64,000 bases of DNA from NCBI RefSeq assembly GCF_000003605.2, contig NW_003156733.1:978037-1042036 (forward strand), in the 5' to 3' direction. This DNA is from Saccoglossus kowalevskii. Lineage: Eukaryota > Hemichordata > Enteropneusta > Harrimaniidae. The notes beneath the pieces are model-generated. The model did not search any database, was not told the DNA's origin, and saw nothing but the letters and a program-made list of their open reading frames with translations. This document shows, in pieces, positions 6,196 through 61,410 of the stretch. The position numbers and the translations under genes are program-made. Positions within the stretch are counted from its first letter, which is position 1. Every line of letters starts with the position of its first letter.

Positions 6196-6748
6196 GATAA
6201 TTTGTTCAAAAAAAGTCCAATAAAACAAAAAAATCAATTTTAGCACAAAAAACCTATGGAAGTTGTTTTCTTGACACTCCGTACCACACTAATGTCATTA
6301 ACAGTTTCTCGGGCATGCCTTTACCAATTTCATTCAAACTTGGCCTTTACACCCGTTTCATGCACATTTGTAGTTAAATACTAAATACTGTCCCAATATT
6401 TAAACATAATTTGACTATGAAACATGATCACCGAAAACATGATGGGGACTATGGAATTGACAATGACTTGTTTATTTTAAATTATATTCGAAAATTGCAA
6501 AGAACTTGAATTTGAAAGTGTGTTTACCGCTATTCAACGTGAACGCGGCCACATACATTTATCAACGCTGGATTATCAGCATGCAAAAAGAAAGTACGAA
6601 TACTAAATATAAATTTGCACAATGAGTTGAGACAGATAATGCCTCTTTAATATGGGTAACTAATCACGATGAACGGAAGGAATTAAGGCAAAGTAATATT
6701 TGTACAGTTTATGCTATATCGATTTTATTGTTTACCTTCTCCTGACAG

Positions 6749-7684
<936 letters not shown>

Positions 7685-10693: not shown

Positions 10694-12100
10694 TTGCCCC
10701 CTCATCAAGACTGAACATGGCACATTTTCAGTTCAATAATCAGCATCAACTGCCAATAAATTTACATTTCTCAAAATTGCAAAAAAAAATGTAACAGTAA
10801 TTCTAAGTATTGTCAAACCTGCTTAAACCGCATTAACCTACTGTTTACTTCTCGTGCCTTGTTTAAATAAATTAATGGCTGGTGATTAGTCTCCAAAATA
10901 AATTCTTTACCATATAAATATTGGTGAAATTTATGCAATGCCCAAATCACTGCCAAACACTCTTTTTTCAACTACAGAATAAGAGTTATCTCTGGCTAGC
11001 AATTTACGACTGGCATATGCCACTGGCAATTTTTCTTCCTCATATTGCTGCAATAAAACTGCACCAAGCCCAACTCCAGATGCATCGCATCTCAAAATAA
11101 AACTCTTAGTAAAATCAGGCAACCTTAAAATTGGTTGCTTACTCAATAAAACTTTCAAGTTAAAGGCACGTTCTTATCTCCCCAGACTACCTTTCTTGGC
11201 TGACCTTTTCTGGTCAAATCAGAGACGAGCTTCTATTGTAGCAAAATTTGGTACAAATTTGCGATAGTACCCAGCCATGCCAAGAAACACTTTGAAGGTC
11301 TTGCGGTTATGCCTGCCTTCCTTAAACGAGCCAAAACGTCCTGTACAATCGCCTTCCAAGATTTTGAATAAATTAAAATGTCATCAATTAAATTCTCAAC
11401 TTTACCTTCAAGACCTACCAACAAGATACGTATCATATGGAAAAAAGAGGTTGGTGCATTCACAAGCCCGAAAGGCATGCGTCGAAACTGAAATAAACCA
11501 TCAGGTGTGAGAAAGGCTGTCTTTTCTGTAGCGTCCTCACTCATGAGGAGTGCTAGTACCGACCCTATTTTAATCGTGAACACCCCTTCCTTTCTTATTT
11601 ACCAAAACAATGGGTGAGGCATAAGGTGAATTTGATGGTTCAATTACACCCATCTCTACCATACTCTTAACCTCTGACCTCACCATATCTGTCATAGCGA
11701 ATAGTTTTGACCTAACTGGTTCAGATGTTACCAATTTAATATCATGCTCACCAATTTTAGTCTTTCCAGGACAATCAGTGGAAAACATCAGAAAATCCTC
11801 TCATAACTCCATCAATCTCTCTATGTTGCTCGACATTCAACTCATGACCAACGAGACAATCAACAATCGTTTCCTCGCACTGAATTAGCACAGATCCCAA
11901 CTCACCACTGTTACACAGTATTTCCAAGAACCATTTCCATGGATGGGATATGGTAATACTTATTAAATAAACGTCGCAGCCAATCAGTGCTAATCATTGT
12001 TTTCCTAGCCGTCTTATGCCTACCACCCCAAAAAATATGAAACAACAATTTATTTCTTCATTTGAGATTTACAACCGTATGAAATGTCCATAGCTTTAAT
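9840..12100 (-). mobile_element. Broken Ty3/Gypsy-like LTR retrotransposon fossil
   Basis: Minus-strand pol fragments: a reverse-transcriptase segment with FRRMPFGLVNAP and the DD-type active site in LIDDILIYS (about 11230-11790), and an RNase H segment with ILRCDASGVGLGAVL (about 10930-11160). The RT-RNase H order and these motifs fit Ty3/Gypsy. Gag, integrase and the right-hand LTR were not recognised, and the element carries several breaks. It is an old, dead copy of moderate age; the right boundary is approximate. Confidence 0.8.
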
Positions 12101-14946: not shown

Positions 14947-15667
14947 ATAGGACAACCACGGTTGTGGTAAGTATTATTACGTATCTCTCAAATAATAATA
15001 CACGTCATTGTCACGAATTGTATTCAGACAAGCGCTTACGAATATGCCCAGATATGCTGATATGCGATCGTGGGTGGAGTTCCGGCAACACCTCATAGCT
15101 GGCCATGGGCCGCACAACTGAAGTATCAAGGCGACCATGATTGTGGAGCAACGTTGATTCATCAAAATTGGGTGGTGACGGCAGCCCATTGCACCCAGGA
15201 TAGCATGTAGGTGGCTATACTTGGTTGGTCTATCGCCATCTATTCGAACTGAGACTTGAAATGACACACAAACTGTGTATATCTATCCACATTTAAATAG
15301 GTAATCAATTCGGATTCATGGAAGGATATAGGGTAATCATCTGAAAGTTTTATTCGTACACTTCAAACTGTATTCATTTTATTAGTTTTCTCTATTCTGA
15401 CATGGAGAATTATCAAGTCCATCTTGGTTCTCACTCGAACGACAAAACCGTTGTTGGAAAAGAACAACAAACTGGAGTCAGTGTTATTGTTAAGCATGAT
15501 TTTTACGACAGCATAACAAAAGAGAACGACATAGATTTGGTGAAATTAAAATACGCCGCCAACCTAACAGAATATGACATTTGTGAATATTGCATGTTTG
15601 TCCGATTCAGAGACCTACTATGAAGCTGGTACTGAGGGCGTTGCTGTTGGTTGGGGCGTCGATAGCG
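14947..15667 (+). pseudogene. Trypsin-like protease pseudogene, copy B (5' half)
   Basis: Paralogue of copies A and C. Three exon remnants survive. A 20-nt micro-exon at 14947-14966 has intact splice sites and the same TTVV end as copy C. The segment at 15064-15206 encodes [18 protein letters not shown] and the catalytic His in VVTAAHC. A third exon ending at 15667 carries NDIDLVKL with the catalytic Asp. Damage: the propeptide part of exon 3 (CGV region of copy C) is replaced by intron-like sequence, consistent with a deletion; the acceptor before 15399, ACAG in copy A, reads ACAT; about 7 extra bases near 15578 shift the frame; and no exons with GDSGGP follow in the next 3 kb. Intron sequence to about 15770 still matches copy A. 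Confidence 0.85.
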
Positions 15668-19120: not shown

Positions 19121-21103
19121 ATGTCGATCAATGACGTAATCGTCTTGATAACTGTCGTCACTTTCACGCTGGGTAAGTCTCGCATGTACAGCGTCCATGG
19201 TCTGTGTCATGTCAGTTACCATCTGGATAAATTCAACTTCAAAAAATTACATTTTAGTGCGTCATTGAAAACGAGCAGTATAATCTCGTGGTTGGTCGTG
19301 TTTGCACATCCGATTTCCATCGATGTGCTTTGCCAATGACGAACCGTGGCGGTCATGACGTATGTCAAGTTCAAGTGAATATATGACCATTTGTTGACAC
19401 ACTTAAGTTTGTTTACACTCACACCTGCACACACAAAGCCGTGTTGCGTGTAAGAATGGTATATGACATGCGTACTGACAGAACGGTTGGTTTATTTTTA
19501 TATTTTTTCGAGAAAATGATCTTTTTAATCATGATGATGGTGATGACATTTGTTATTGATTTTTTTTTTTAATTTGATTGTTTTAATTTGTAAGTTAAAT
19601 TTTATTTAATAGGCAAATAGAAATATTCACTAATTCAGCTCATTCACTTTTTTTCAGCTTTATCAACCACGGTTGTGGTAAGTCACATTAATTTTCTTCC
19701 CGTTTCTAACACGTCAATGTCACGGTGCAGGGAACCGAATTTGATTCAGAACAAATCTTGCGAACACGTCCAGACATGCTGTTTACACCGTATACTGGCT
19801 TTCGTCACAATTTGATAATATATTGACAATAGATGTGGGAAACAACAAATGTGTACACAGCTTGTTCTATGTAGATGACCTCATATCCCTGGAGGTCATC
19901 GTCCATGCGTGACTAAGTTGTACCTAACTAGGTTTCTGTTCAATATATTGTCCATAGACTGCGTCGTGTGGAGTACAAGCAATACCACCGAGTACGTCAT
20001 TGCCTGGCACGGCGATCGTAGGTGGAGCTCCAGCAACACCTCATAGCTGGCCATGGGCCGCACAACTGAAGTTTCAAGGCAATCATTATTGTGCAGCAAC
20101 GTTGATTCATCCAAAGTGGGTGGTGACGGCAGCCCATTGCACCCAGGAAATATGGTAGGTGGTTATACTAGTACTTTGTTGATCTATCGCCATCTATTCG
20201 ATTTGGGACTCGAAATGACAAACCAGTTGTTTATATCCATCCACATTTATATGAGTAATCAATTCGGATTCGTGGCAGAATATATAGGGTAATCATCTGA
20301 AATTTCTATTCGTTCACTTCAAACTGTATCTATTTTATTTGTTTCTCTTCTCACACAGGGTGGGTTTCTCTAAAGTTCATCTGGGTTCTCACTCGAGAGA
20401 CCAAATCGATGTCGGAAAAGAAGTACAGATTGGAGTCANNNNNNNNNNNNNNNNNNNNNNNNNNNNNNNNNNNNNNNNNNNNNNNNNNNNNNNNNNNNNN
20501 NNNNNNNNNNNNNNNNNNNNNNNNNTATTTAAACACGACGAAACGCGAAATAAGCAAATCAAAACATATCTCATACATATGAAATACACATGTCAAATTA
20601 ATTTTTTTTTTTTTGTTTTTTTTGTTTTTTCAGACACTTCAGTTGACGATACCGTACTTAACCAAGTGGTTGTCCCGGTGATTGGCGTGAATGTATGCAA
20701 TAGCACCCAGATGTACGATGGTTATATAAAAGACGGCATGTTTTGTGCCGGATATGCAGAAGGTGGCAAAGACGCGTGCCAGGTGATCATAGTTTAGACT
20801 AGGGTGCCACCTCACGTCAGGCACAATGCTCATACAACCAGTCATCATTTATGAAATTTATAAAATGCGATTTTATCAGTTTGTTCGAATCAATGTACAA
20901 TTTCTTTGTTTAAGTTAATAGTTCAATTCTCGTTACAGGGCGATAGCGGCGGACCATACCAAGTTGCTCGCAGTGATGGTTCATGGGAATTATACGGACT
21001 AGTGAGTTGGGGTGATGGGTGCGCTGAACCTAATAGACCCGGCATCTATACTCATATTCCAACCTATGTTGATTGGATAAATGACGTAATAGCGTCAACA
21101 TAA
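19121..21103 (+). CDS. Trypsin-like serine protease, copy C (six exons, one gapped)
   Basis: Secreted S1 protease. Exons: 19121-19172, 19658-19677, 19958-20154, 20359 to the gap at 20439, 20634-20782, 20939-21103; phases agree at every readable junction. Exon 1 encodes a signal peptide ([17 protein letters not shown]). Exon 2 is a 20-nt micro-exon (LSTTVV). Exon 3 holds the propeptide [17 protein letters not shown], whose Cys would bridge to the catalytic domain as in chymotrypsinogen, then [14 protein letters not shown] and the catalytic His in VVTAAHC. Exon 5 ends KDACQ and exon 6 opens GDSGGP, giving Asp in the S1 pocket (trypsin-like) with Ala after it. The catalytic Asp must lie in the gap. 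The C-terminus stops at INDVIAST, without copy A's hydrophobic tail. Start: the only Met with a signal peptide, 52 nt before a GTAAGT donor. Confidence 0.88.
19658..19677 (+). CDS. 20-nt micro-exon of protease copy C
   Basis: Flanked by TTTTTTTCAG and GTAAGT. It enters in phase 1 and leaves in phase 0, so it links the signal exon to the propeptide exon in frame. The same 20-nt unit with both splice sites survives in pseudogene B at 14947-14966, which argues that it is genuine. Confidence 0.75.
20439..20525. other. Assembly gap (87 N) inside protease copy C
   Basis: The run of N begins within exon 4. By comparison with copy A, about 190 coding bases plus the start of the next intron should lie here, more than the 87 N shown. 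The gap length is therefore nominal. Confidence 0.95.
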
Positions 21104-40652: not shown

Positions 40653-42655
40653 TTACTTTTGTTCGAAAGACGTAATCGGGGATTTGAAAACAGACTTTCT
40701 ACGACGTCGCTCATGGGGAGGGATCATTGTTGGTCTTATGCTTTCCCTCCTTCTCTCACAGTCGCTTTCGCTCCCACTGCTTCTTCTATCACTTTCCACA
40801 CGGCGCCTGTTCCCAGGCATCGCCGGAGAAGTCATGAACGGCTGATCTGAAAAGCTGACTCGTTGGCGAGAGCTTCTACGCTCTAATCGTCGACTATTGA
40901 GTTTGATCAAACTCTCCTTCCTTGTAAGGCATGGTCGGCCGATAAGTCTTTGAGAAGTTGACGTCCTCCTCTTGCCATGTTCGTCATCTGAAATTATCAT
41001 TTCCTCTGCTGAAGGTAGGAGTCGAAAGCGGTTAAACTGTTCTTCGCTGTCCACGTTCTGGTTCGATGATTTTCTTAATCGTTCTGGTGTCAACTTTATT
41101 CCGGCCTTCAAAACGCTATCGTGTTCATCATCGCCTAAGCCTAATGGTACAGCGTGCTTTGCCTCGTCAGAATCAACCTCTGTTTCCTCCGATAAACGGC
41201 TAACTATACCTCTTCGCATTGTACTGATTTTTCTCTGAGACAAATCTTCTGTGTTATACTTTCGTGCTCTTGGCGGTGTTATATCCATCTGAATGACGTC
41301 GCTTATTTCTAGGTTGTAGCTCAGGGTGGATGTTAGACTGCTCCGTCTAAGCAACGCTGGACGGCCAGCACACTCACCTCTGCCAGATATCTTCGAAGAT
41401 GGTGGCCGAGGCGTTTTCACTTCTAAATTAGAGCAGACCGTAGGGTGAGAATAGTGATGCCGTGAGTAGCGGGCATCTCCACTGTCAATGACTACAGGAA
41501 TGGCCTTCAATACTCTTTTTCGTTTTGGAGACGAACTTAACATATAGTTTGGTTCATGTTGTAAGCTGGCTCTTCCTCGTCTACCTCTCTGTGGTTCGCG
41601 ATAATTGTCAACTAGAAGATGATGTAGAGTTCGCCTTTTCGGCTTCCTCCTTGTCTCACTGATTACGTAACCACATTGGTCAAGATCTGCAACTTCTCCA
41701 GGTAAAGTTTCTTGCAGTGAAGACAGTATCACTTTCTTTTTTAATAAAGAACTTGTACTAAATGTTCTGCTTACCCTTGAGTCTTTTCTTTGACGACGCT
41801 GTTGAGGGGAGTGCTTGGGACTTATATCGCCGATTGAACTATTGAGGGAAAGTGTCTCGATTTGGCACTTGTTGATGGCTTCATGTAGTAATGTCTGAGG
41901 AGTCAAGTGTGAATTGGGAAACACCTGTTGACAGTCATTGTCATCGTCATAAAGCAGGTACAGTGGGTCACTATCCTGCCCGTCATCGTAATCTTCATCG
42001 CATATTGGGTCGCCATATCCGTCATCTGAAGATGAGAGCTCATAGTTAAAGTCAGTTTCTGATGCTTCAATGCGCCGCAGACAACCCTCTTTCCTGCGCA
42101 AGAAGCGACTGGACACGATGACTGCCGATGATGGCTTTGGTCGCAGGCTATCAAAGCAACACTTCTGTCGAAGAAGATTCCTCAGTCCCCGTCTAAACGG
42201 CCTGTAGAGTAGAGTATAGATGTACGGATCAACGACGGAATTGGCGTATATCAGGTACTTTGACAACACCATATATTTTCGTATTGTGTTTTTGTCAAGT
42301 ACCATCACAATCTGCAGCAAATGAAGCAATGAGTACGGCGTCCAACAGAGTATAAAGAAACCTATCACTAGGCATAATATTTTCACAGCCTTTGTGCGTT
42401 CAGAACGAATGAGTGCGGGCCTTCTTCTTTGGCCATCAACCTGAGGCATTGCATCGATGCGACGAGCCTGGGAGCGAGCTGCGCGGACCATGTGGTAGTA
42501 GCAGTATACCATTACCAGCAAAGGGATAGCATACGCTACAACGAACACAATGAGTGAGAATGGAAGGTTACCACTCCAGTTCACTCCACATCCCAATTCC
42601 TGCGACTGGTAATGATACTCTCCGAACCCAACAAGTGGCATCAATGAACAGATAC
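40653..42655 (-). CDS. GPCR exon 4 (end of TM4 to stop)
   Basis: Acceptor TTATTCTAG before GTATCTGTTC. With exon 3 this gives WICPGICSLMPLVGFGEY, the correct Trp-to-Pro spacing of TM4. The open frame continues 5' to a Met at 42719, but those 21 codons are intron (pyrimidine-rich acceptor tract). Encodes TM5-TM7 and the whole tail in one exon of 2003 nt. Confidence 0.92.
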
Positions 42656-45600
42656 CTAGAATAAGATGGACAAATATAAATGTCATCAACACGCAAATAG
42701 ATTGGAGGTTGTTTCCCATGCTAGCATACGCGTGTAGCGTTTGCGCTGAATATCAGGCGTCGGTCGTCGCGTAGTTTAAATTCTTGTAAACAAAAAATAT
42801 ATTTGCACGCGTTGTATATGTCGCGAGGACGTCCAATGATAAACATGGCGCACAAAAAGTGCTTCGATTTGATCAAGCATTTCTTCTCTCCGATCAATGA
42901 TCTCACATACATTTCCTTGAGAATCACACAAATCTAATGGAAACAAATTAATTTTATTTGTTTTCGTCCTCCTCAAAAAAAAATGCCTTATAAAAACTCG
43001 AGAAACAAGAAATAAAAAAAGTCTGGTCTAAAGGCAAAATAATTATATTTATTGATGAATGCGCTTGTGTATTGAACCAATATGACAAATAATCTATTAT
43101 AATTTATCGTTTCTCGTGTTTTATTTTTTAAGGACATAAGCGAGTGTCAAAGTTCTTACCTAAAGGCACAAGATCGATCTACAGCATATCCAAGTATTAC
43201 TTGATTTCAAATATAAGTCTCATAGCACTTTGTGCTTCATGGTCTATTTGGGCTCATGCGATTATTTATATATTAGGCTACACATTTAGAGCTACATATC
43301 CCTGCCAAATCCCTTTAGCCGCGGGGGGGGGGGGCAATGCGTTTTTACTTAAGGTATACATACCTGGACATATCCATATGATCGAAACCATGTACTTGGC
43401 ACGTATTGGTGTCATCATATTAAGATAATCCAGTGGGTGCACCACTGCGCAATATCTGGAGAGAAAAAAACAGAAAAAAACACAGTTTTAACATTAGCAG
43501 GGAAAGCGGTTCTTGGTCATATTTCACCGGTAATAAAATTCCTCATTTACAAATGAAAAACCTTTATTTTTCATGCTGTTTTTTTTTTTTTTTTTTTTTT
43601 TGTTGTTTCAATATAGTTTTCCGTGATCATATTTTATTCACGATAAATATTAATATTCTGGTATGTGTTCGTCTACAAAAATTTGCAAAAATCGTAACCT
43701 GTTGAATCTTTCATATATAAATGGCTCTAATAAAAAAAAATACTGTCACTTAAGTACGCTGTCAGTATAGTCATTGATCGTGTGCCAATTGCCATGCGTG
43801 TCGCATTGAACTTAAATAAATTAATAATTATCTAATTGCCCTTTTTTACTTGACTTTACAAACAATATTAACGTTGAAAGTAACTTACCAACTGGTCTGA
43901 TACGTATGTAGGATTGCATGGTAATTTCGTACCTAGTAAATGGCTAATATGTATCAGCATCATACCGTTAACAATAAGTTAGTTTATTAAAAAAAAAAAT
44001 ATCGTCCTTGGAAACAAAATGAGTTTTGTCAGAGTTACTTACTGCATCTATGTAAAATAACTTACGACACATCCATTCATTTCTGGTAACCAATACGAAA
44101 ACTATAAACTTACAGAAACCTGAGAGGTATATTATTAATTAGTATTTCAATACAATAGAGTTAAACCAGGTATTATCACGCACATAACTGACGTTATGTA
44201 TACTTCCATGGCATTATCTTCAACATACTCACCAATATCAGCTGCATATTTCAGTTTTGTATTCCGCCCACCAGCAAGAACGACTCCATATAGAGCAATA
44301 CTGAATTTTACCGACCTCCGACCTTTTTAAATTACTTTAAACATTACAGTGCAATTCGAAAAGAAATAACGTGAACCAGATATTGCTTGCTACCTTTACA
44401 TATAAATACTAAATTGTATGAAAAGTGTATAAAACCTAAACATTGAATAACCTGAAATGTTTAAGACAAAAGCTGTTGTTCTTGATAATGGGCAGCTACG
44501 AGCATTTGGGTCACACCTGATATTGGCGGTTTCAAATAGAATGGCTATTCATCAAGATTGAGAATGAATGCAAGCCATCAAATAATACACAATCGCTGTA
44601 CAAATAAATCGGATCCCGGGTCTGTGTTTATTTGTCAACACTCACGCAAAAATATAGCGAGACTTTCTAGATTCGAAGAGAATAATGAAAATGATTTCAC
44701 AGGTCATGGAAAACATCAATGTCCTGAATATCGTTAACATACTTAAGAAAATAAAAAAAAATGAAAATGACAATCACGAATAACCCTCTCCCCTATCCTA
44801 GTAGAAGTTTTTTAAACAACTATAATGGGTTTGTATTAGTTATTATAACTGATCGTGGTTATTTGGTTTACTTTTGAAATCAAATTAGGATTAATTAACA
44901 TTGTTTGTTTTTCCGTTACACGCTGTAAAGATGTTTTACAATATAAAGGCGAGAAACTTGTGCACTAAGTTCAAAGTTCCTTGTCATTCCTCTCTTGCAG
45001 TTCAATCTTTAACATACACACACTGTAACGTTCATATAAATTACCTGTTTGCCGAAAAATACCCAGGTTTTGTGAGTATCGTTAAAACAAGTGTGCCAAG
45101 TTTGAAGGTCTAGCTATTTCCCCTGTAGTTAATTAACTAACATACATAAACCATGCTGTAACTTTGACCTTTGTCATGTATGTCGCATGGAACCCAGATC
45201 GAACATGAAATGTGAATATTATGCCGGAAATTTGGCAACAAATAAAATGAACTTGAACTGGGTGACAATTTTGTCTCGCTGCTTTCATTCTAGATGTGAA
45301 TTGCCATATAGTCCAGTTTAGTCTTGGGGTTGTAGATTAGGGAAGTCGATTTCCTATTCTTTAGCACATTAAAATTCAATTTTGAAGCAACACACCGGTG
45401 TTGTTATTGTTATTGTTGTTTCTGTTTTGTTTTGCTTTGTTTTTGTTGGTTGTTTTGTGTTTTTCATTGTTACCTGTGTTACTACTGCTACGGTTGCAAA
45501 TACGTATGTGAACGAAACAGTGTATCATTCAGTTCATTCCGACCCACCTGTCAATGGAGATACATGCTACGGTTAGCGTAGATGAGACACTGAACAGCAG

Positions 45601-46753
45601 AGCCAAGAAACCAGTGATTTCACACAGCGCACTTCCTAGCAACCATCTTCCAGTAATCAGTGATATGAGAGAGAAAGGCATTGCCAGCACTCCGACTAAT
45701 AAATCGCTGATAGCCAGGTTGACCAGGAGCAGACCTAAAATCATAGAAAATTCTAATATAGTCACGCGATAGGTCAGTCAGTAGCAAGCCTGAAATCTTG
45801 GGGGAAATATCATATAGTCACGTGATAGTTAGGCTAGTCTGTAGGAAGTCTAAAATCAAAAATGTGGCGCTGTTTATATTGTTTAATGTACTCGCCAGAT
45901 ATTTGATTTTTTTTAATGATTTGGTCATTTGTTTTGTGTTCTCGGACAAGTGAATTTCTCTATACGACCTGTGTACGTCGATTTATGCTAATGTTATTCC
46001 CAATTAAAGCGGGGGAGTCGTCACCTGCGCATGCGTCAGATGGCCGTAGCGTGTCATTGTTTAGAAACAAGCGTCTACCCATGAGCCCTTGCGTTTTTAG
46101 CGTCGCTTGGTGACGACCCTATCGCTTTAACCCTCCCGCTTTAATCACTGGTGGTGGTAGAGTGTTTTTCTCTTTCGGTGTGTAGCTTGCAATTTACTTT
46201 TTTTCGTAAACAATTCCCCCCTCATGATTTAAATTGACCGACCCTTTAATCATATTTAAGGGACTCAATGCAAAATAGCTCTGAACGTAACCCACCTTAC
46301 TTGTTGAAGCAGTACACCATCTAATGCCCCCTTGTTTGGTTCTTAAAAAAATAGGGGAAACAAGAAACCGGTGGGTGGAAAGCAAATATTCGGATGTATC
46401 TTTCAGTTGGGGAATTGAAGCGAACGCAAATTAATTTGACCTTTTTCATGAAATACGACTATACAAAGATTACTTTGATTTAAAATATGTTGTCTTGCCC
46501 ACTACGTAAACACGCCACTGGAGAAAAATAGTCCGAATCTGCTATCATGCAAAGGTTATGCATTTTGCTGATGAGATCGTTATTTTTTTTTATATTTAAT
46601 AATTGTGATGGTTGAGGGGAAGACAATGGCAAAACTTCTTTATTTTTAATGCAGATTACTCGAGGGTTTAAGTTTCACGAGGTATTTTAACCGACATATA
46701 ATCTGACGTTATGTAATCGGTCTCGCTCGTAACCCGCAATTACTAATATTGTC

Positions 46754-46796
<43 letters not shown>

Positions 46797-49700
46797 ACCG
46801 CTGCGTCATGGGAAAATAATTGAAACCAGATAACAAGAGCGTTGCAATTATAGTATGACGTGACCTTTGTCAATCGACTTTCTAATGTTTCGAGTCATTG
46901 TTCCCGTGCATACTAAAAAAGTACCATTTTGGGCAGGAACGACGCGAGTAACACCAACAGGAAATCGACAAAGACTGATTAAATGATCAATTTATTAATT
47001 ACTATTATTATACATTTGTCACTGTAACGCCATACGTTACAGCATGCCGTAATTTTGCAGTATTTTACGGAGTATTTTCATCCTACCATATTAGGAAATG
47101 CGAATTCCAAATATAGAATGATTACGCGTGTAAGCGTGCTCTAATAATAAAAACAAACATGGCTGACACCGGGGTTTGACCGGACTCAACACAAAGAAGT
47201 TCGCTGATTTTGGATTTCGGCGTTCCAAAGATGTATCCTTGAACGGAAAAGACGTATAATAGTAAGGTTATTACGAGAATACCTCAAAGTATGCACTCAG
47301 ACAGTACGCCGCGCATCGACCTCCGCTGCGCGTCAGTCGATCTCAGCTGTAATGTCTTCGTGCATACTTTGAGGTATTATCGTAATAACCTCATATTATT
47401 ACACATTATTATTATGTTACAGCGTGCCGTAATTTTGCGGTATTGTACTAGATAGTTTCATCCTGCCATATTAGGAAACGCGAACTCCAAATATGGCACG
47501 AATACGCGCGTAATGAAAAATAATTATGACTGGCCCAAGGGTTTGACCGGACTCCACACAAAGAAGTTCGCTAAATCTGTTCCAAACGTTTTGGTTTTCG
47601 GCATTTCCATGATGTATCCTTGGAAGGAAAAGATGTATAATAATAAGGTTATTACGAGGATACTGCAAAGTATGCACGTGTTTTTTATTCAGTTCGTAAC
47701 ATCCGTTGAAATCTATTCAATTTCCAAAGTTTTTCTTCGTGTGTTTACGTCTTTTCATGAGAAGATGCAATTGTGCCCAGCACATGAGTATTTATTACCA
47801 GTTAGCAATACAGCTGCTATCACCGGCACCCGGGGTCTTCAAATCATCGGGCTCCGATAAAAGTAATCGTATCCATTTAGTTTTCACTTAACATCCGACC
47901 AATCATCGTGAATTTTAACTTTAGTTTAATCAAATGTAACCACATAGTCCCAGCACTTCCTGTTAACAGATTACAGACAATACTCCAATATTGACGATCG
48001 TGTCGTGATCACATATATGCAAAATAATTGCTCTCATTCGTTTAACACACGTTGTTAGCTAAATCGTGTTTCACGTGTCATACCTATCGTCTGCTAATAA
48101 AATTATTGTTCCTAAAGGTTACGTCATTATCCAACATTCTTTAACGCGTGTGTCACCCATGCTTTATTGTGTTATTTGTAAGCGCTGTAACAGTTTGCCC
48201 GTATAATTAGTGTTACCCCAATTACTGCAGCAATGGTGATTCACACAACGGGGCGTCTTCCTTACCTCGGAGACTGACTGTTCTGAAAATAGATTCCAAA
48301 CCCATGCTGGGCATGGTTTTTGTTATTCCGACGATCGGTCAAAGTTCACCTGATATTATGAATTGTAAACTTAGCGATAATGCCCATATATGAATTTACA
48401 TCTATGTTGATATTTGTACTACTGAACCAATTCACTTTTTAGAATATACCTATTAGATGGCTGGCATATTCAGTTAAAGTTCAGGGCCACCTATATTTTG
48501 ACTCTTATTTTAAGGATATGTCTACATGTTTGATTTCCATTATAGTTTCTAAAATATTTAATCAACTTAAATCCAAAATGGCTTAAATTTACGATTGGAT
48601 TATGTGGATGTATGTATGAAGCAGTAAAGTTGTAAATGTGTTTTAAGTCAGAGAAATGATTAGGGCAATAATAGTCCAGTTGGTCAATAAGCCATGCACT
48701 TCGATCATTGGTGCGATCTCTGCAGTACGTTCTCTGTGCGCGACACGTTGTCGTTAATTATTAATTAGTTTTTTTTTTCATTTTTGGACTATTTATGCTA
48801 GTAAAATTTCTTAAACGTAAGCTGGTTTTGGCGCGGCGGTAAGTTATTTTGGTGACGTGGTAAACAGAGAATCACGATAGATTTATGTCCTGTGCAAATC
48901 ATATTGTAAGTCATTGTGGATTAAGATTGTTTAAGATTGTTTGCATATATGCTCAAATAGGGTCTAAATATTGGAGACGCCGTATTTAATGTCAAGCAAA
49001 CTTTTTTCAAAAATACACACACAAGCTTTCCAAACTTATACGACATTTATCAGTAACTCTTGTTGCTACCAGTAGGTCATATACCCATGGAATAATGTTG
49101 TTTTCTTAACAGCGGTTCGATGAGTTATATTATAAAGATTTATTGGATTATGTAACTAATGATCATTTAGTTTATTCAAGATATACAGCAGTGCGGTTGT
49201 TTCCAGTATACATACGGTTTCCCGGTCCCAAATTGCGATAGTATTATAAAACGTGTGTTTTAAGTTTTCCAAGTCTGCCAGTCCCCACTTTTTTCAGTTT
49301 GTATGGTTGGCCTGATTCTTCTATTGGATACAAATGGTTCGGGCAGGGTTATGTGTGTATGTCTATTGGCTTTCATGTTAAACAATAGTTTAAAATGTCA
49401 CTCACTGGACGGTCGTTTAATTGAGAATCTCTATCCCTTGGAGGATAATACAATCGCCCATGTCGTGATAACATGAGCATCACATGTGTTATTGTATTGT
49501 CAACCGTGACGTCACAAAACAGCACAATGTGTTATCTACCTACTCGTTTCCTTGTCTCCAGCTGGCATGGATTTTGATTTTTTTATTGCATTTCCACAAA
49601 AACTTAAATGTATCAGGCGCGTTTGTTTGACTGAAATGGCCTTTCCTAGCTAGTTACCAGAAATATCTATAAACCATACTGTCCGTCTTAATCTTAAATT

Positions 49701-52700
49701 ATCGTTTTCAATATGAGACCCATGCAACGTTTAGTACCACGCGTGCTAAATGTATTCTGTAAACAAGAAATTCGGTCGTTTTAATGTTATCGTCCACCGC
49801 GAATCATGAGTGTTCGATATGTTTTGTGTATTAGGTCACTGAATCTAAACGCATAATCTCGGAGTTTAATAGTTACGTGAGTATCGGTAGATGAGTCACC
49901 TTCTTTGACAGAATAGTCAGTATACCGTTGCATATAATCGACGGTGCAAATTATTTTCATTTGCGTGGCTGCAGCGAATAAAGACGAACGTGCAATGTTA
50001 CCCGTGCATCAGTGCACGTTTTGTTTTCATCGTTTCTCCTCAAGTAAGGTTAATCGGTCAAACTCGAAAGAGTTGTAATCCCTATGGACTAGTATTAGTC
50101 AGCCACTTTTTCTGTTGAACCCCCGGGGTTAAATTCAAGAACAACGTAGTCGGTTCTGTAATATATGTTACAGCCCAGGAGAGTATGCGTGTTACTAGTA
50201 TTACCTCAATCATTGCGTTTGTGGCAGTAATTTCGATTCACATCACGAAGTGTTTTAGATAGTTCTGTCTTACCTCGGTGACTGACAGTTTTTTTATACA
50301 GACCCGACAACCATGGTGGGTGGTATTATCCCGGTGATAGGTACATTGTTTTATATAACAAATAAAAACATGTAAACATTTATTATATCCTTTTACAAAA
50401 TTGGTTTGATTATTTATGTTATAAAAATATTGGATTATGTAACTAAATATTGCCATGAATACGGTTTCATGATCATTCTAGTTTAGTCAAACGTATATAG
50501 CTGACTGTGTAGTTTTGTTTTATATACGGTTTCCATGTCCCCCAAATCTTAATAGTATCATAAAACGTGTGTTTTAATTTTTCGATGTCTGCCGCTCCAC
50601 TGTTTTTCGTTTGTTTGCCTCATCCGGATCCATTAGACACAAATGATTCGAACAGGATTGTATGTACCGTCGAAATGTTAAAGTTAAACAACAGCGATAG
50701 TCACGGAGCAGGGCCTCGTTAATGGCAAATTAACTGTCGGTGACAGATCGTTACTTGAAATTTACCGATTTGATGACCACGCCGGTGTTTTTGATTAATT
50801 GTGGCACACATACAAGAATCGGCATGTAGCATTCTAATCGGAAAAGGTATAATATGGGCTGAGGGAATTTTATTGCTGGCAATTTGTTTTACTGGGCATC
50901 ACTCGATTTATATAATTTATTGTTCATTGATGTAATACGGGGGTCAGGATTATTTAGAATTTTATGACCGTGTCATGATTTAATCGGTCTTGCATGTTAA
51001 CATTGCTTTATGGTTACAATGGAATCGAGTGAGATCTCGTTGAGAGTGAGAAAGCCGTGAGAACTTGTTTTCGAATATCACATAGGTTAGCATTCACCGT
51101 CAAGATTAACGACTCAACAAACACAATCAACGTCGAGAATCTCTCCATGAAAAGTCTCCATCAAAATTCAGCAACATAAAATTTGTAATAACAATTTATC
51201 CGAGTAATTTTGGGTAGAAATAATTTATAACTCAATTTGTTTAATATGTTTGCATGACAATAGCGACGGAAGCAAGAAAAGTGACATAATCTGTCTGGGC
51301 GAACACAATGAAATTTACATGTTACCGGGAACATATAAGTGCGGTTCAAGGCGCACCCAGACTCGTTATAACATAAATCAAAACGCTCAGAGCATAGGGA
51401 ATATCTCAGTGAATTTGAAGACAAATTGAAATACATGACACATTCGCAGCTTAATAAAAAAAGATGAGGATAATTCATAGTATCGTTTTAATGTTTGGTT
51501 GCGCACTAATAATATTAATTTGATGCGCATGCGCTTCGGATTAATGATACGTACTATTGAAATGCTGAAATAACAAAAGCGAACAAGTCGCCCACATTCC
51601 TCTCCTGGACAAATGTATTCATTTCATACGAAATATATCACAAACTACGCAGATTACTAGCTTTAATAACAACATCTTAATCATGTCATACTTAGTAAAA
51701 CAAAGAAAACAAGCGAACACACCTATAGAATTACAATGTACATTGTATGACATTTAAAGACGCCGAGTTACAAGATTTTTTAACTAACGAGCCATTGGCA
51801 CAGACACGAGGGACGCCCTTTGATCTTCAAAGTCGGAAGCACATAGCAGAGGACGACCAAGTAAGGACCCGCCTTGGGAGCGAGGCTGTGACGTCGAGGG
51901 TAATGAAAAAAAACAGATTGAGTTAAGAGGCCCGAATACAAAATAAAATGTATTTTTTGAGTGTTTAGCGGATAACGACATGTGCGTTATTCGTGTGTGT
52001 TCTTGAATAAATCACATACAAGTGCATTTTGTAGGGTTATATTTTTTTCCCATGAAGGCAAATACAATTGCTTGCCAGTAAACAAGGTTGTTGCTATCGT
52101 TACGTCTACACAATATGATTGAAAATTTGTGTACAGTTATAGTCGGGCTAGGCAAGGTGAAATAAACACTTGAGATAAAGAAATCGCCTATGTACATTAC
52201 CGTATGTGGGGAACACGTCATTGACCTATCAACTAGAGACTGCGTGCAGATCAGAAATTGCGCGAAAGTTATAGTGCATATTGAATGCATTCATGTTCCC
52301 TTCACGGCCATTGTTGGTTACCAATATCTCTAAATACTACGTCCCATGAATCACACAACGATCACATGATGCGATGATTTTAATATTGTGTAATGAAATA
52401 TGAATTGCCAGGAGGAGCATACACTTTGTAACTCGAGTTTCAGATAACGATGCACAATGCGAAGATTTTATCGCTGGATAACTCTTAATACCCTTGATGT
52501 GTCCAATGTAGCAGTGCAATCATTCGAAGATTTCAATCGATGTAGCTTTCCTTGACAACAAAATGTTTCCGGATTTCACCCAACAGGATGTTATCACAGT
52601 GTATTAAAACTTGTTGCTTATCATTTATATTTTCACTATTAGAATTTTTTGATGCGCATGATTTTTATCTGTCTGACTATATAAGTCAATTTTCGACTTG

Positions 52701-54867
52701 TTTCTAAGACGGGTTACGAGGCGCACGGTCACTGCCTTTCGTATGCAAACACATGAACCAAACGAGTGCAAATTGTTTCCTGATTTTGCGAGGTATCTCG
52801 TACTCTCACTCTTTGGAGATAAAATACGTGTCAACTCGTCTGATTACAGGTGTTGACATTATTGTACATTTTGGGCGCAGAATTAACTGCGTCATTCATC
52901 GGTAAATATATGGACGACATCGGATTAATAGACTAGTCCGTCGGGAGGTTAGGTTTCATACACCTCAACAACGATTTTAATTATATTGTCCCCCAATGGC
53001 GAATGTGCACAGGGAAGGCTTTGCCGCGTTAATTAAGTATAGCTCAATTACCAATGGCAAAACCAGACATTCGCCATAAACACTGCGATAAAGACTTTCC
53101 GTTTACGACATTGTGAAATTCTTTCGTTTTTATGCAAAAAATATACAGTATTGTACGAAGTAAAATCATATTTATTAAAGTTATTGTTCATACATGGGTC
53201 GTTGAACACATTACATAGTTTGTAATTTTATAACTCAAGACAAATAAAAGGAAAAAAATATAGACAATATAGCTAATTATCTATGTTTCTGTAATATTCT
53301 TTTGTAACCGGTAATTATGAAAATTATTCATGGGAACATAGGGATGACATTTCGTTATGAATTAATATTAATATAAATTTATAAATTATCTTGTTAACAA
53401 AAAATGTCGCAAAAAATGAAAAGTATTTCACAATGTCAAAAACAGAAAGTCTTTATCGTATTGTTATCATACATCAATTTTTGTAAAATTGTCGCAAAAT
53501 ATGTTTCAAATAGTAATACAAATAACTGAAATGTTGCCATAATATGACTATTTATTAAACAGGGTTCACTTAAGTTTTGACTTAACAACGCATTAGAAAC
53601 TGCTTTGTCTCACAGTAATATAGTGACTTTACTCTGTGAACAAAAATACTGTGTTGTTAAGGTGGTATTCGTGAAACGAAATCGTTATTTCTTGTAGACT
53701 GTATGTCGCTAGTGCAACACTATGTATGTACTAGTATATTCGTTTTTTTAAGTACGCCGATTTTATCTTTTTTTGGCTTTATTGTTTCCATCTCTAATTT
53801 CCATTCATCTTGAAAAAAAAGACGCACGTGTCGAATATCACATTTTTTGTCTTGTTTAAACGGATACACATACATCCAATCCATTCAATCAATATAGTAT
53901 GTGCCAATGCATCATTGTTTTCAATTAATCAATGTACAATTTGCAAAAAATTTCGTGATTATATTCATTGATTACATGCATTTTCTTGGAAACATTTCAA
54001 ACGCGGCTGAACCGCTAATATCCGGATTCAGTATATGATTAAATCGTTGCAAAGTTTTGTCGTTTTGTACGTGATGTATCATTTGTAGCTTGAGCAGAAA
54101 AGTTTAGATATAGGCCGTTATATTTGACAGTTAACGCATGAATATTCTGTTCGTTTGTGAATCGTGTATCCAGACCCGGTTGGATTAATTCACAGGACTC
54201 ATGTGTAAGTCGTCTGTGTTGTCTTGCATTCCTGTCCAATTTATGGCGTCGACGAATAATATTTCATAAAAGTATATAGTGACAAATACGTCAAACTGCG
54301 ACTACTAGGCGCCAACTGCAGTCAGTTCGTGGGATCAGGCATACCTGTTGAGGTTGACCTGATGTCTGTCGAGATAGGACCATCTCGTCCCCTGTGCCAT
54401 CAAATGACGGAAGGGGTCAATGTAACTAACGATTGACAATATTAAATTGAAATATTAATATATTGCTTTTGTTATTTCGCATTTACGTTTTCCCCATTTC
54501 TGTCAATAAAAATGAAATAAAAAGTAACATAGACACATGTGGTGTCATTATTATCATTAGTAGTATTTTTAAATGTTTCCCTAGTATGAACATCGGCAAA
54601 AACAACCGTGAAAGATAGGAAGATTTACATCATCAGCAGATGATGTTACTTACTAGTGATGAGTTGGAGTTCCGGAGACGAAATGTGATAGATCACCCAA
54701 CACACAGAAATATTACCAAGTACGGCTAAAATAATCATAAGCGCGAGAAGAAAACCTCCGCCAACTTGAATATCAAACGAGATGAAATTCGCGGAACTTA
54801 TATTATTTGCAGCGTTACTGTCAAAAATCCCGCCTGTAGCATTGTCAAGAACGGTTGAGTTCTCCAT
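40653..54867 (-). CDS. Class A GPCR with a ~500-residue basic C-terminal tail
   Basis: Seven-helix receptor, 831 residues, from exons 54867-54654, 45734-45548, 43455-43364 and 42655-40653 (phases 1, 2, 1 agree). N-terminus has three N-glycosylation sites (NST, NAT, NIS). TM1 has LGN; TM2 NLAISDLL (Asp82); Cys109 would bridge to Cys187 in extracellular loop 2. DRY is residues 133-135, followed by CAVVHPLDY; TM4 has Trp161. TM5 has IPLLVMVYCY; TM6 has CWTP (268-271); TM7 has DPYIY (307-311). Position 3.32 is Ala and the opsin retinal-Lys position is Tyr, so neither a classical amine receptor nor an opsin. After residue 330 comes a cytoplasmic tail rich in Arg and Ser: an acidic patch (SSSDDGYGDPICDEDYDDGQ), then many RRxS-type sites (RRSSLTS, RRTSTS, RRESIR, RRRKSVF). 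Ligand unknown; GPR161-like and other orphan families are possible relatives. Introns are 8919, 2092 and 708 bp. Confidence 0.9.
43364..43455 (-). CDS. GPCR exon 3 (DRY, second intracellular loop, TM4)
   Basis: 92 nt between CTCTCCAG and GTATGT. It completes the Arg of DRY and encodes YCAVVHPLDYLNMMTPIRAK, then YMVSIIWICP and the first base of Gly165. Proline six residues after Tyr in the loop and Trp in TM4 sit at the expected distances, and both phases fit the neighbouring exons. It is too short to stand out as an ORF. Confidence 0.9.
45548..45734 (-). CDS. GPCR exon 2 (TM2-TM3)
   Basis: Acceptor ATTTTAG before GTCTGCTCC; donor GACAG before GTGGGT, splitting the Arg codon of DRY (phase 2). 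The boundary within DRY is a site used by introns in several class A receptors. Confidence 0.92.
45728..45860 (-). repeat. 60-bp tandem duplication at the GPCR exon 2 acceptor
   Basis: On the plus strand the block ACCTAAAATC...ATATAGTCACGCGATAGG is followed by GCCTGAAATC...ATATAGTCACGTGATAG and then GTCTAAAATC. Each copy carries a minus-strand acceptor-like GATTT(T/C)AG. Only the innermost (exon start 45734) joins in frame; use of the next one at 45789 would add 55 nt and shift the frame. Confidence 0.7.
46004..46144 (+). mobile_element. TTAA-flanked MITE, copy 2 (in GPCR intron 1)
   Basis: 141 bp from TTAA at 46004 to TTAA at 46141. The left end AGCGGGGGAGTCGTCACC and the inner GATGGCCGTAGCGTGTCATT match copy 1 at 27546 in opposite orientation. 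It is internally shorter than copy 1, and a second TTAAAGCG-like motif lies inside its right end. Confidence 0.75.
46758..46793. repeat. (AT)18 microsatellite
   Basis: Uninterrupted dinucleotide run in GPCR intron 1. Confidence 0.98.
47029..47305 (+). repeat. Direct repeat, unit 1 (GPCR intron 1)
   Basis: About 80% alike by eye to 47411-47675. Shared phrases include GCCGTAATTTTGC, CATATTAGGAAA, GTTTGACCGGACTC, ACACAAAGAAGTTCGCT and GATGTATCCTTG. Confidence 0.8.
47259..47401. repeat. Imperfect 140-bp palindrome
   Basis: AATACCTCAAAGTATGCA on the left is answered by TGCATACTTTGAGGTATT on the right, with flanking AAGGTTATTACGA / TCGTAATAACCT continuing the stem. The centre (TACGCCGCGCATCGACC) is GC-rich with its own inverted TGCGCG parts. 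It could be a MITE nested beside the direct repeat. Confidence 0.8.
47411..47675 (+). repeat. Direct repeat, unit 2 (GPCR intron 1)
   Basis: Partner of 47029-47305. It also ends in AAGGTTATTACGAGGATAC-GCAAAGTATGCA, i.e. one arm of the palindrome without the other. Confidence 0.8.
48230..49360 (+). repeat. Duplicated intronic block, unit 1
   Basis: Contains GATTCACA-CA, CTTACCTCGG-GACTGAC, then (49125-49350) TTGGATTATGTAACTAA, ATACGGTTTCC, ATAAAACGTGTGTTTTAA and GTCTGCC-CTCC. The same order recurs at 50225-50665. Confidence 0.7.
50225..50665 (+). repeat. Duplicated intronic block, unit 2
   Basis: Partner of 48230-49360 with the middle deleted: TTGGATTATGTAACTAA, ATACGGTTTCC, ATAAAACGTGTGTTTTAA and GTCTGCCGCTCC occur in order. 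No conserved reading frame. Confidence 0.7.
50666..54653. other. Remainder of GPCR intron 1
   Basis: AT-rich intron without a supported gene on either strand. Confidence 0.5.
54654..54867 (-). CDS. GPCR exon 1 (N-terminus and TM1)
   Basis: Starts at ATG (54865-54867) and ends ACT A before GTAAGT, phase 1; 71 complete codons. No signal peptide is needed because TM1 begins near residue 36. It is the only Met upstream of TM1 in this frame with a good donor. Confidence 0.88.
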
Positions 54868-60871: not shown

Positions 60872-61134
60872 TTATTTGTCAATTCGTTCCACGAATGTAC
60901 CAGAATCGCAACAGAAACTTCGTGTCTGTGGCGGTATCTCGTTCTTCAGCCAACACTGGCCATAGCTTTCCGGTCGCTTATCGAACGTCCACGCGAGGCA
61001 TTCTGGGTCACTTCGACATTGTTGGCAGCATTCGGCTTGGCTGCCGACGACGTTGTATCTGCCGTTGTTTATATCGCTTCCCTTTCGATCAACGTTATTT
61101 TCAATCGTATTTGTACAAGACGTTGGTCCGCGAC
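60872..61134 (-). CDS. PAN/Apple-domain protein, last exon
   Basis: Acceptor TTTCTATAG then GTCGCGGACC (phase 1 entry), 86 residues to TAA. PAN_4-type domain: SCTNTIENNVDRKGSDI, then V-GSQAECCQQCRSDPECLA, WTFDKRPESYGQCWLKN, and a last Cys pair (FCCDSG). The order C...CCQQC...C-AW...CWLK is the family signature. PAN modules bind proteins or glycans outside the cell, and a phase-1 start is usual for shuffled extracellular modules. Upstream exons were not found with certainty. The C-type lectin exons to the right on the same strand could belong to the same gene. The 3' UTR is very short: AATAAA overlaps the stop codon and recurs at 60847-60852. Confidence 0.8.
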
Positions 61135-61410
61135 CTATAGAAAGATTAAATAACAAATGTTGCTTGTCGCCTCTTGAGATCTTAGGGCTGTTTCTAGGGT
61201 GGACGGAAATTTCGACCACGGACAAATAAAGTACAATTTTTAGTAAAATTTACATATTTTGGTGAGTACAAGAGTGGGTACAAGAGTATAGAAGTTAAAA
61301 TTAAAATTTGTATCCATCAGGAACCATCAAAAGTTGCCGTATAAATAGTCATTTAATTCATATTGGGGTGAGTGGATTAGAGGGTGTTTTTATCTTCGCT
61401 GGCAAGTTTG

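Follow-up and report, generated by a model that had tools for sequence, protein, structure and literature searches.

The 64,000-nucleotide stretch of DNA analysed here (the window) carries on its minus strand a gene for an 831-residue class A receptor whose C-terminal tail is longer than the receptor core and is enriched in sites of the type [RK][RK]x[ST]. We assign a probability of about 0.5 to the reading that this protein is an orphan, probably cAMP-coupled receptor, and that its tail would be a multisite substrate of PKA-like basophilic kinases, with feedback from cAMP; the proposal is drawn from sequence.

Gene model and receptor core

The reading frame is assembled from four exons, all on the minus strand, that are separated by GT-AG introns with junction phases 1, 2 and 1. 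Exon 1 (54654..54867) supplies the ATG, an N-terminus with three N-x-S/T sites and TM1, and runs to residue 72, where a GTAAGT donor (phase 1) follows. Exon 2 (45548..45734; acceptor TTTTAG, donor GTGGGT, phase 2) encodes TM2, ECL1 and TM3 as far as the Arg codon of DRY, which is interrupted by the intron; exon 3 (43364..43455; acceptor TCTCCAG, donor GTATGT, phase 1) continues from DRY into the beginning of TM4. The open frame of exon 4 (40653..42655; acceptor TTCTAG) holds the rest of TM4, TM5 to TM7, helix 8, the whole tail and the stop codon. The start ATG stands in the context GAAAATGG; the 15th codon upstream of it is an in-frame TAG, with no in-frame ATG in between. The initial annotation had proposed that four phase-matched exons yield a full 7TM core. 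Indeed, the junctions at residues 72, 134 and 165 are all ungapped in an alignment with the beta1-adrenergic receptor, and the Pfam profile 7tm_1 matches residues 51-311 (E 3.6e-57, 194 bits). The receptor gene is real and looks intact.

This profile match and the conserved landmarks of the helices identify the protein as a class A (rhodopsin-like) GPCR. The landmarks comprise N52 (1.50), D82 (2.50), C109 (3.25), the DRY motif (R134), W161 (4.50), C187 in ECL2, P209 (5.50), a CWxP motif in the form CWTP (P271) and an [ND]PxxY motif in the form DPYIY (P308), a common variant of NPxxY.

The ligand class had been left open on the grounds that position 3.32 is Ala and the position of the retinal Lys is Tyr. 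We find the same residues (Ala116 at 3.32 and Tyr301 at 7.43) and, in addition, His at 6.55; neither the amine anchor nor the retinal lysine is present, and two contacts of adenosine receptors (6.55 and 7.43) are likewise missing. An aminergic receptor was rejected with Asp3.32 replaced by Ala116, and an opsin with the Schiff-base Lys at 7.43 replaced by Tyr301. Adenosine receptors carry Asn6.55 and His7.43; the gene has His and Tyr at these positions, and this class was rejected as well.

The solved chains most similar to the core were those of the beta1-adrenergic, H2 and A2A receptors, with 5-HT1A close behind; GPR161 was absent among the best 60 of the 897 distinct solved-chain sequences that passed 0.001. 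The core was also compared with a panel of 12 human receptor sequences, of which GPR161 alone was verified. By blastp, A2A (135 bits), beta2 (129), H2 (129) and 5-HT1A (105) matched at 27-33% identity, with GPR52 (110) scoring above the last of these; by phmmer, 5-HT1A came first (133 bits), followed by H2, A2A and beta2. GPR161 ranked seventh by blastp and eleventh by phmmer, where OPN3 scored above it. A 13-row tree, built mostly from these unverified sequences and representing a small panel, not a full class A phylogeny, places the gene on a branch of its own, outside the opsins (100/100), GPR161+GPR101 (99/98), GPR52+GPR21 (100/100) and the four amine receptors (99/97). The opsins RHO and OPN3, which make up the first of these groups, score under A2A, beta2, H2 and 5-HT1A. 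From this separate branch and the blastp and phmmer rankings, we class the protein as a putative orphan class A receptor in a broad amine/adenosine-like region, without the amine Asp3.32.

The beta-adrenergic, H2, A2A and 5-HT1A receptors differ from the gene, which has Ala116 at 3.32 and a tail of approximately 500 residues. The TM5/ICL3 segment of H2 (ARDQAKRIN) resembles ARSQARRID here. Elsewhere in the genome, a single-exon receptor (L003, G000:C1465:554575-555357) is 52% identical over 292 residues to human histamine H2; since this H2-like receptor is present, the gene is unlikely to be the H2 orthologue. L003 is also the best-scoring sampled match to the receptor core (33%, 151-152 bits).

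Tail length and composition

The tail (residues 326-831; 40656..42173, minus strand) comprises 506 amino acids, compared with 325 in the core, and all of it lies in exon 4, just as the initial annotation had described it. Arginine makes up 12.6% of its residues and serine 13.6%. An acidic block, likewise remarked on before, is evident in the charge profile at residues 376-425 (41874..42023, minus strand), with a net charge of -9 in residues 376-400 and -5 in residues 401-425. A known domain was considered for the tail and rejected: a Pfam search of the tail returned no family at E 1, and a search of residues 316-831 against solved chains gave no meaningful E-value, the sole PDB match standing at E 1.8.

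A disorder prediction had been suggested as a check. FoldIndex was below zero in 89% of tail windows (centred 351-806) and in 1% of core windows. AlphaFold2, run on the single tail sequence, returned a mean pLDDT of 37.5 and one helix, at residues 417-428, which overlaps the end of the acidic block; without an alignment this method scores ordered proteins low as well, so that its value fits disorder but does not prove it. We infer from these predictions that the tail is probably disordered.

To place the length of the tail in context, we compared it with 50 receptor loci of the same genome, chosen non-randomly from a match list of 149 rows: the eight best matches, two picks with long frames (L012 and L013) and 40 loci taken down the list. 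A complete frame and an [ND]PxxY motif were present in 43 of the 50; those dropped (L012, L042, L045, L046, L047, L051 and L053) could conceal long tails, and the control loci, being poor in introns, may give a biased picture of tail length. Within those bounds, the control tails had a median of 38 residues, the longest had 231 and none reached 300. The length of the tail is thus unmatched among the receptors sampled (43 of 50 measurable). At E 0.1 or better, it matched none of the 43 control proteins. The match list was also inspected by eye. In every row considered, the open frame extended beyond the matched stretch by at most 323 residues, a figure that excludes one row running into N and four rows of the split receptors L012 and L013; because of this ceiling, a same-exon tail of 500 residues is impossible in the rows considered. 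Long phospho-rich receptor tails are already known, and it is in length, among the receptors sampled, that the gene is exceptional. In the portion of the open-licence literature that was available, a receptor of this kind was not found described.

Two further loci deserve mention. A receptor on C1465 has an open frame of 7540 amino acids that enters a stretch of N, and this length is not real. L012 (G000:C46:810083-811939) is an amine-type receptor frame of 756 amino acids with a very long third loop, in which an acidic block and basic-serine sites can also be made out by eye. Long, disordered-looking receptor parts in this genome can thus occupy a loop and not the tail, and acidic, basic-serine sequence is not unique to the tail, since certain receptors of the genome carry it in long third loops.

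Kinase motifs and a proposed cAMP feedback

The initial annotation had counted at least six RRxS or RRxT sites in the tail. There are exactly six RRx[ST] sites (residues 601, 727, 757, 788, 800 and 816), and they belong to a larger set of 12 [RK][RK]x[ST] sites. Both numbers exceed those expected in composition shuffles: 6 vs. 1.47 for the strict motif (P 0.002) and 12 vs. 3.06 for the relaxed one, a count that none of 5000 shuffles reached. When dipeptides were preserved, the expected means rose to 2.86 for RRx[ST] (P 0.053, borderline) and 5.35 for [RK][RK]x[ST] (P 0.005); clustering of arginines therefore explains part of the excess, but not all of it. The control tails point in the same direction. 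In their 1975 residues there are nine [RK][RK]x[ST] sites, a per-residue density five-fold lower than that of the 506-residue tail (Poisson 5.7e-6), and six RRx[ST] sites (Poisson 0.005). In the polar stretches of eight receptors, loops included, five [RK][RK]x[ST] sites occur in 1430 residues (0.35 per 100, vs. 2.37 here).

The PKA consensus is given in PMC13289941 as RRXS/T-phi, where phi denotes a hydrophobic residue next to the acceptor on its C-terminal side. Three of the RRx[ST] sites are followed by a hydrophobic residue, compared with 0.39 expected from composition (P 0.008) or 0.78 with dipeptides kept (P 0.037); for [RK][RK]x[ST] the count is five, compared with 0.83 (P 0.0013) or 1.46 (P 0.012). 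After [RK][RK] doublets, S/T peaks at +3, the PKA position (12 of 34, vs. 18% overall). After RR doublets the peak lies at +5 (8 of 19) and +3 comes behind it (6 of 19), a pattern that argues against an array shaped by PKA alone. Basophilic motifs do not discriminate among PKA, PKC, CaMKII, RSK and Akt. The earlier suggestion that the tail is a kinase substrate holds as a prediction from motif density, which is above that of the shuffles and of the other tails; PKA is not singled out, because its consensus is common to several basophilic kinases.

The same data bear on a possible but tentative alternative: the tail might be a disordered phospho-tail used mainly by GRK/arrestin, PKC or CaMKII, with no special tie to PKA, and its length might reflect lineage-specific drift. 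The generic basophilic character of the motifs, the arginine and serine content and the +5 peak after RR doublets are what such a tail would display. Against it, the +3 preference after [RK][RK] and the number of sites followed by a hydrophobic residue beat both shuffle controls, whereas S/T-x-x-D/E (15 vs. 13.0 expected) and S/T-P (9 vs. 5.9, P 0.12) show no clear enrichment.

Under the substrate reading that we prefer, the receptor would probably couple to a cAMP-raising G protein. Its activation would raise cAMP, and PKA would then phosphorylate the arginine-serine-rich tail beside its acidic stretches; the resulting change in tail charge could alter desensitisation, partner binding or trafficking. 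The coupling to Gs, the part played by the kinase and the feedback loop are all inferred from the relatives of the core and from the motifs. The beta1-adrenergic, H2 and A2A receptors are Gs-coupled, 5-HT1A is Gi-coupled, and G-protein coupling is not reliably readable from sequence. The scheme would amount to heterologous feedback in the manner of the beta2-adrenergic receptor, with more sites. That receptor has LRRSS sites in loop and tail, with one such motif after helix 8; it is phosphorylated by PKA in heterologous desensitisation and is a closer functional analogue than GPR161. If the tail is indeed a PKA substrate array, the gene would be a compact case of multisite receptor self-feedback and a convergent counterpart to GPR161.

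A bolder proposal, to which we give little credence, is that the receptor has its own cAMP read-out: approximately a dozen PKA-type sites, alternating with acidic blocks, would form a graded charge switch, possibly also keeping PKA close by, and the tail would represent a third direct route by which a seven-TM protein engages PKA, with an evolutionary origin separate from GPR161 and Smoothened. Smoothened, which belongs to class F, uses a non-phosphorylatable site, whereas RRx[AGNV] is not enriched here (1 vs. 1.17 expected); a pseudosubstrate array was therefore rejected, one lone site of this kind being possible. The tail of Smoothened engages PKA as a pseudosubstrate and inhibitor, according to PMC13289941.

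Integrity of the tail and the GPR161 parallel

It is unlikely that an internal splice or a retained intron shortens the tail, leaving it partly untranslated in the main isoform. A strong donor-like AG|GTGAGT (41372..41379, minus strand) lies within the tail near residue 590 and could mark an alternative splice or the start of an exitron. Moreover, codon usage leaves the tail unmarked as coding: a score trained on eight receptors of the same genome marks the core weakly (0.043) and gives the tail -0.010, which is separated neither from 86 intron windows (mean -0.023, sd 0.032) nor from the other frames; as a gauge of coding potential the score proved uninformative. Weighing against a shortened tail are its 506 codons without an in-frame stop, where approximately 28 stops are expected from base shuffles (the lowest of 300 had 13). 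Past the donor come ten of the 12 basic-Ser/Thr sites, and meeting one such donor by chance in 2 kb would not be very unusual (roughly 0.06-0.24, by simple arithmetic with equal base frequencies).

A parallel with GPR161 had been drawn in the initial annotation. GPR161 is likewise a class A orphan with an extended tail and RRSS, and this part of the parallel stands: it holds KRRSSVTF, and the tail here ERRSSRQRVSF. The homology does not follow. The tail of GPR161 is less than half as long, the two tails do not align, and the local alignment of the core with GPR161 (BLASTP, 27% identity, 102-110 bits) ends at helix 8. At least six of the 43 sampled receptors match human GPR161 better, at 115-140 bits, the best being L016 (G000:C3692:94210-94995; 30%, 140 bits), and GPR161 pairs with GPR101 to the exclusion of the gene in the 13-row tree. 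A GPR161 orthologue was rejected on these grounds, and the resemblance, as far as the sequences go, appears to be one of style, with descent not shown.

GPR161 was called the only receptor then shown to be an AKAP, and a PKA site was noted, in a 2020 review (PMC7017137); according to PMC13289941, L465P disrupts the AKAP helix of GPR161. The scaffold role once suggested for the present tail found no backing. Windows fitting a crude AKAP pattern number two, vs. 3.5 in shuffles, and no hydrophobic amphipathic helix was found in the tail by this test, which is weak: the tail of GPR161 itself reaches no more than five of the six pattern positions, and the strict pattern missed its own helix. With these AKAP counts, the unaligned tails and the GPR161+GPR101 pairing set against the shared class, the extended tails, the RRSS motifs and the 110-bit core match, a GPR161-type receptor whose tail serves PKA as both anchor and substrate is very improbable.

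Rfam, at gathering scores, had no match in the 64,000-nucleotide window. Trypsin-like serine protease exons lie in a row on the plus strand at 6687-7016, 15345-15620 and about 20288-20797, and probably form a tandem cluster; the first two match Pfam Trypsin, and the third, partly N, was read by eye. On the minus strand, 11236-11598 is a reverse transcriptase fragment (RVT_1, E 1.1e-10), probably a retroelement remnant, and 60875-61249 is a PAN domain exon (PAN_4, E 1.2e-14).
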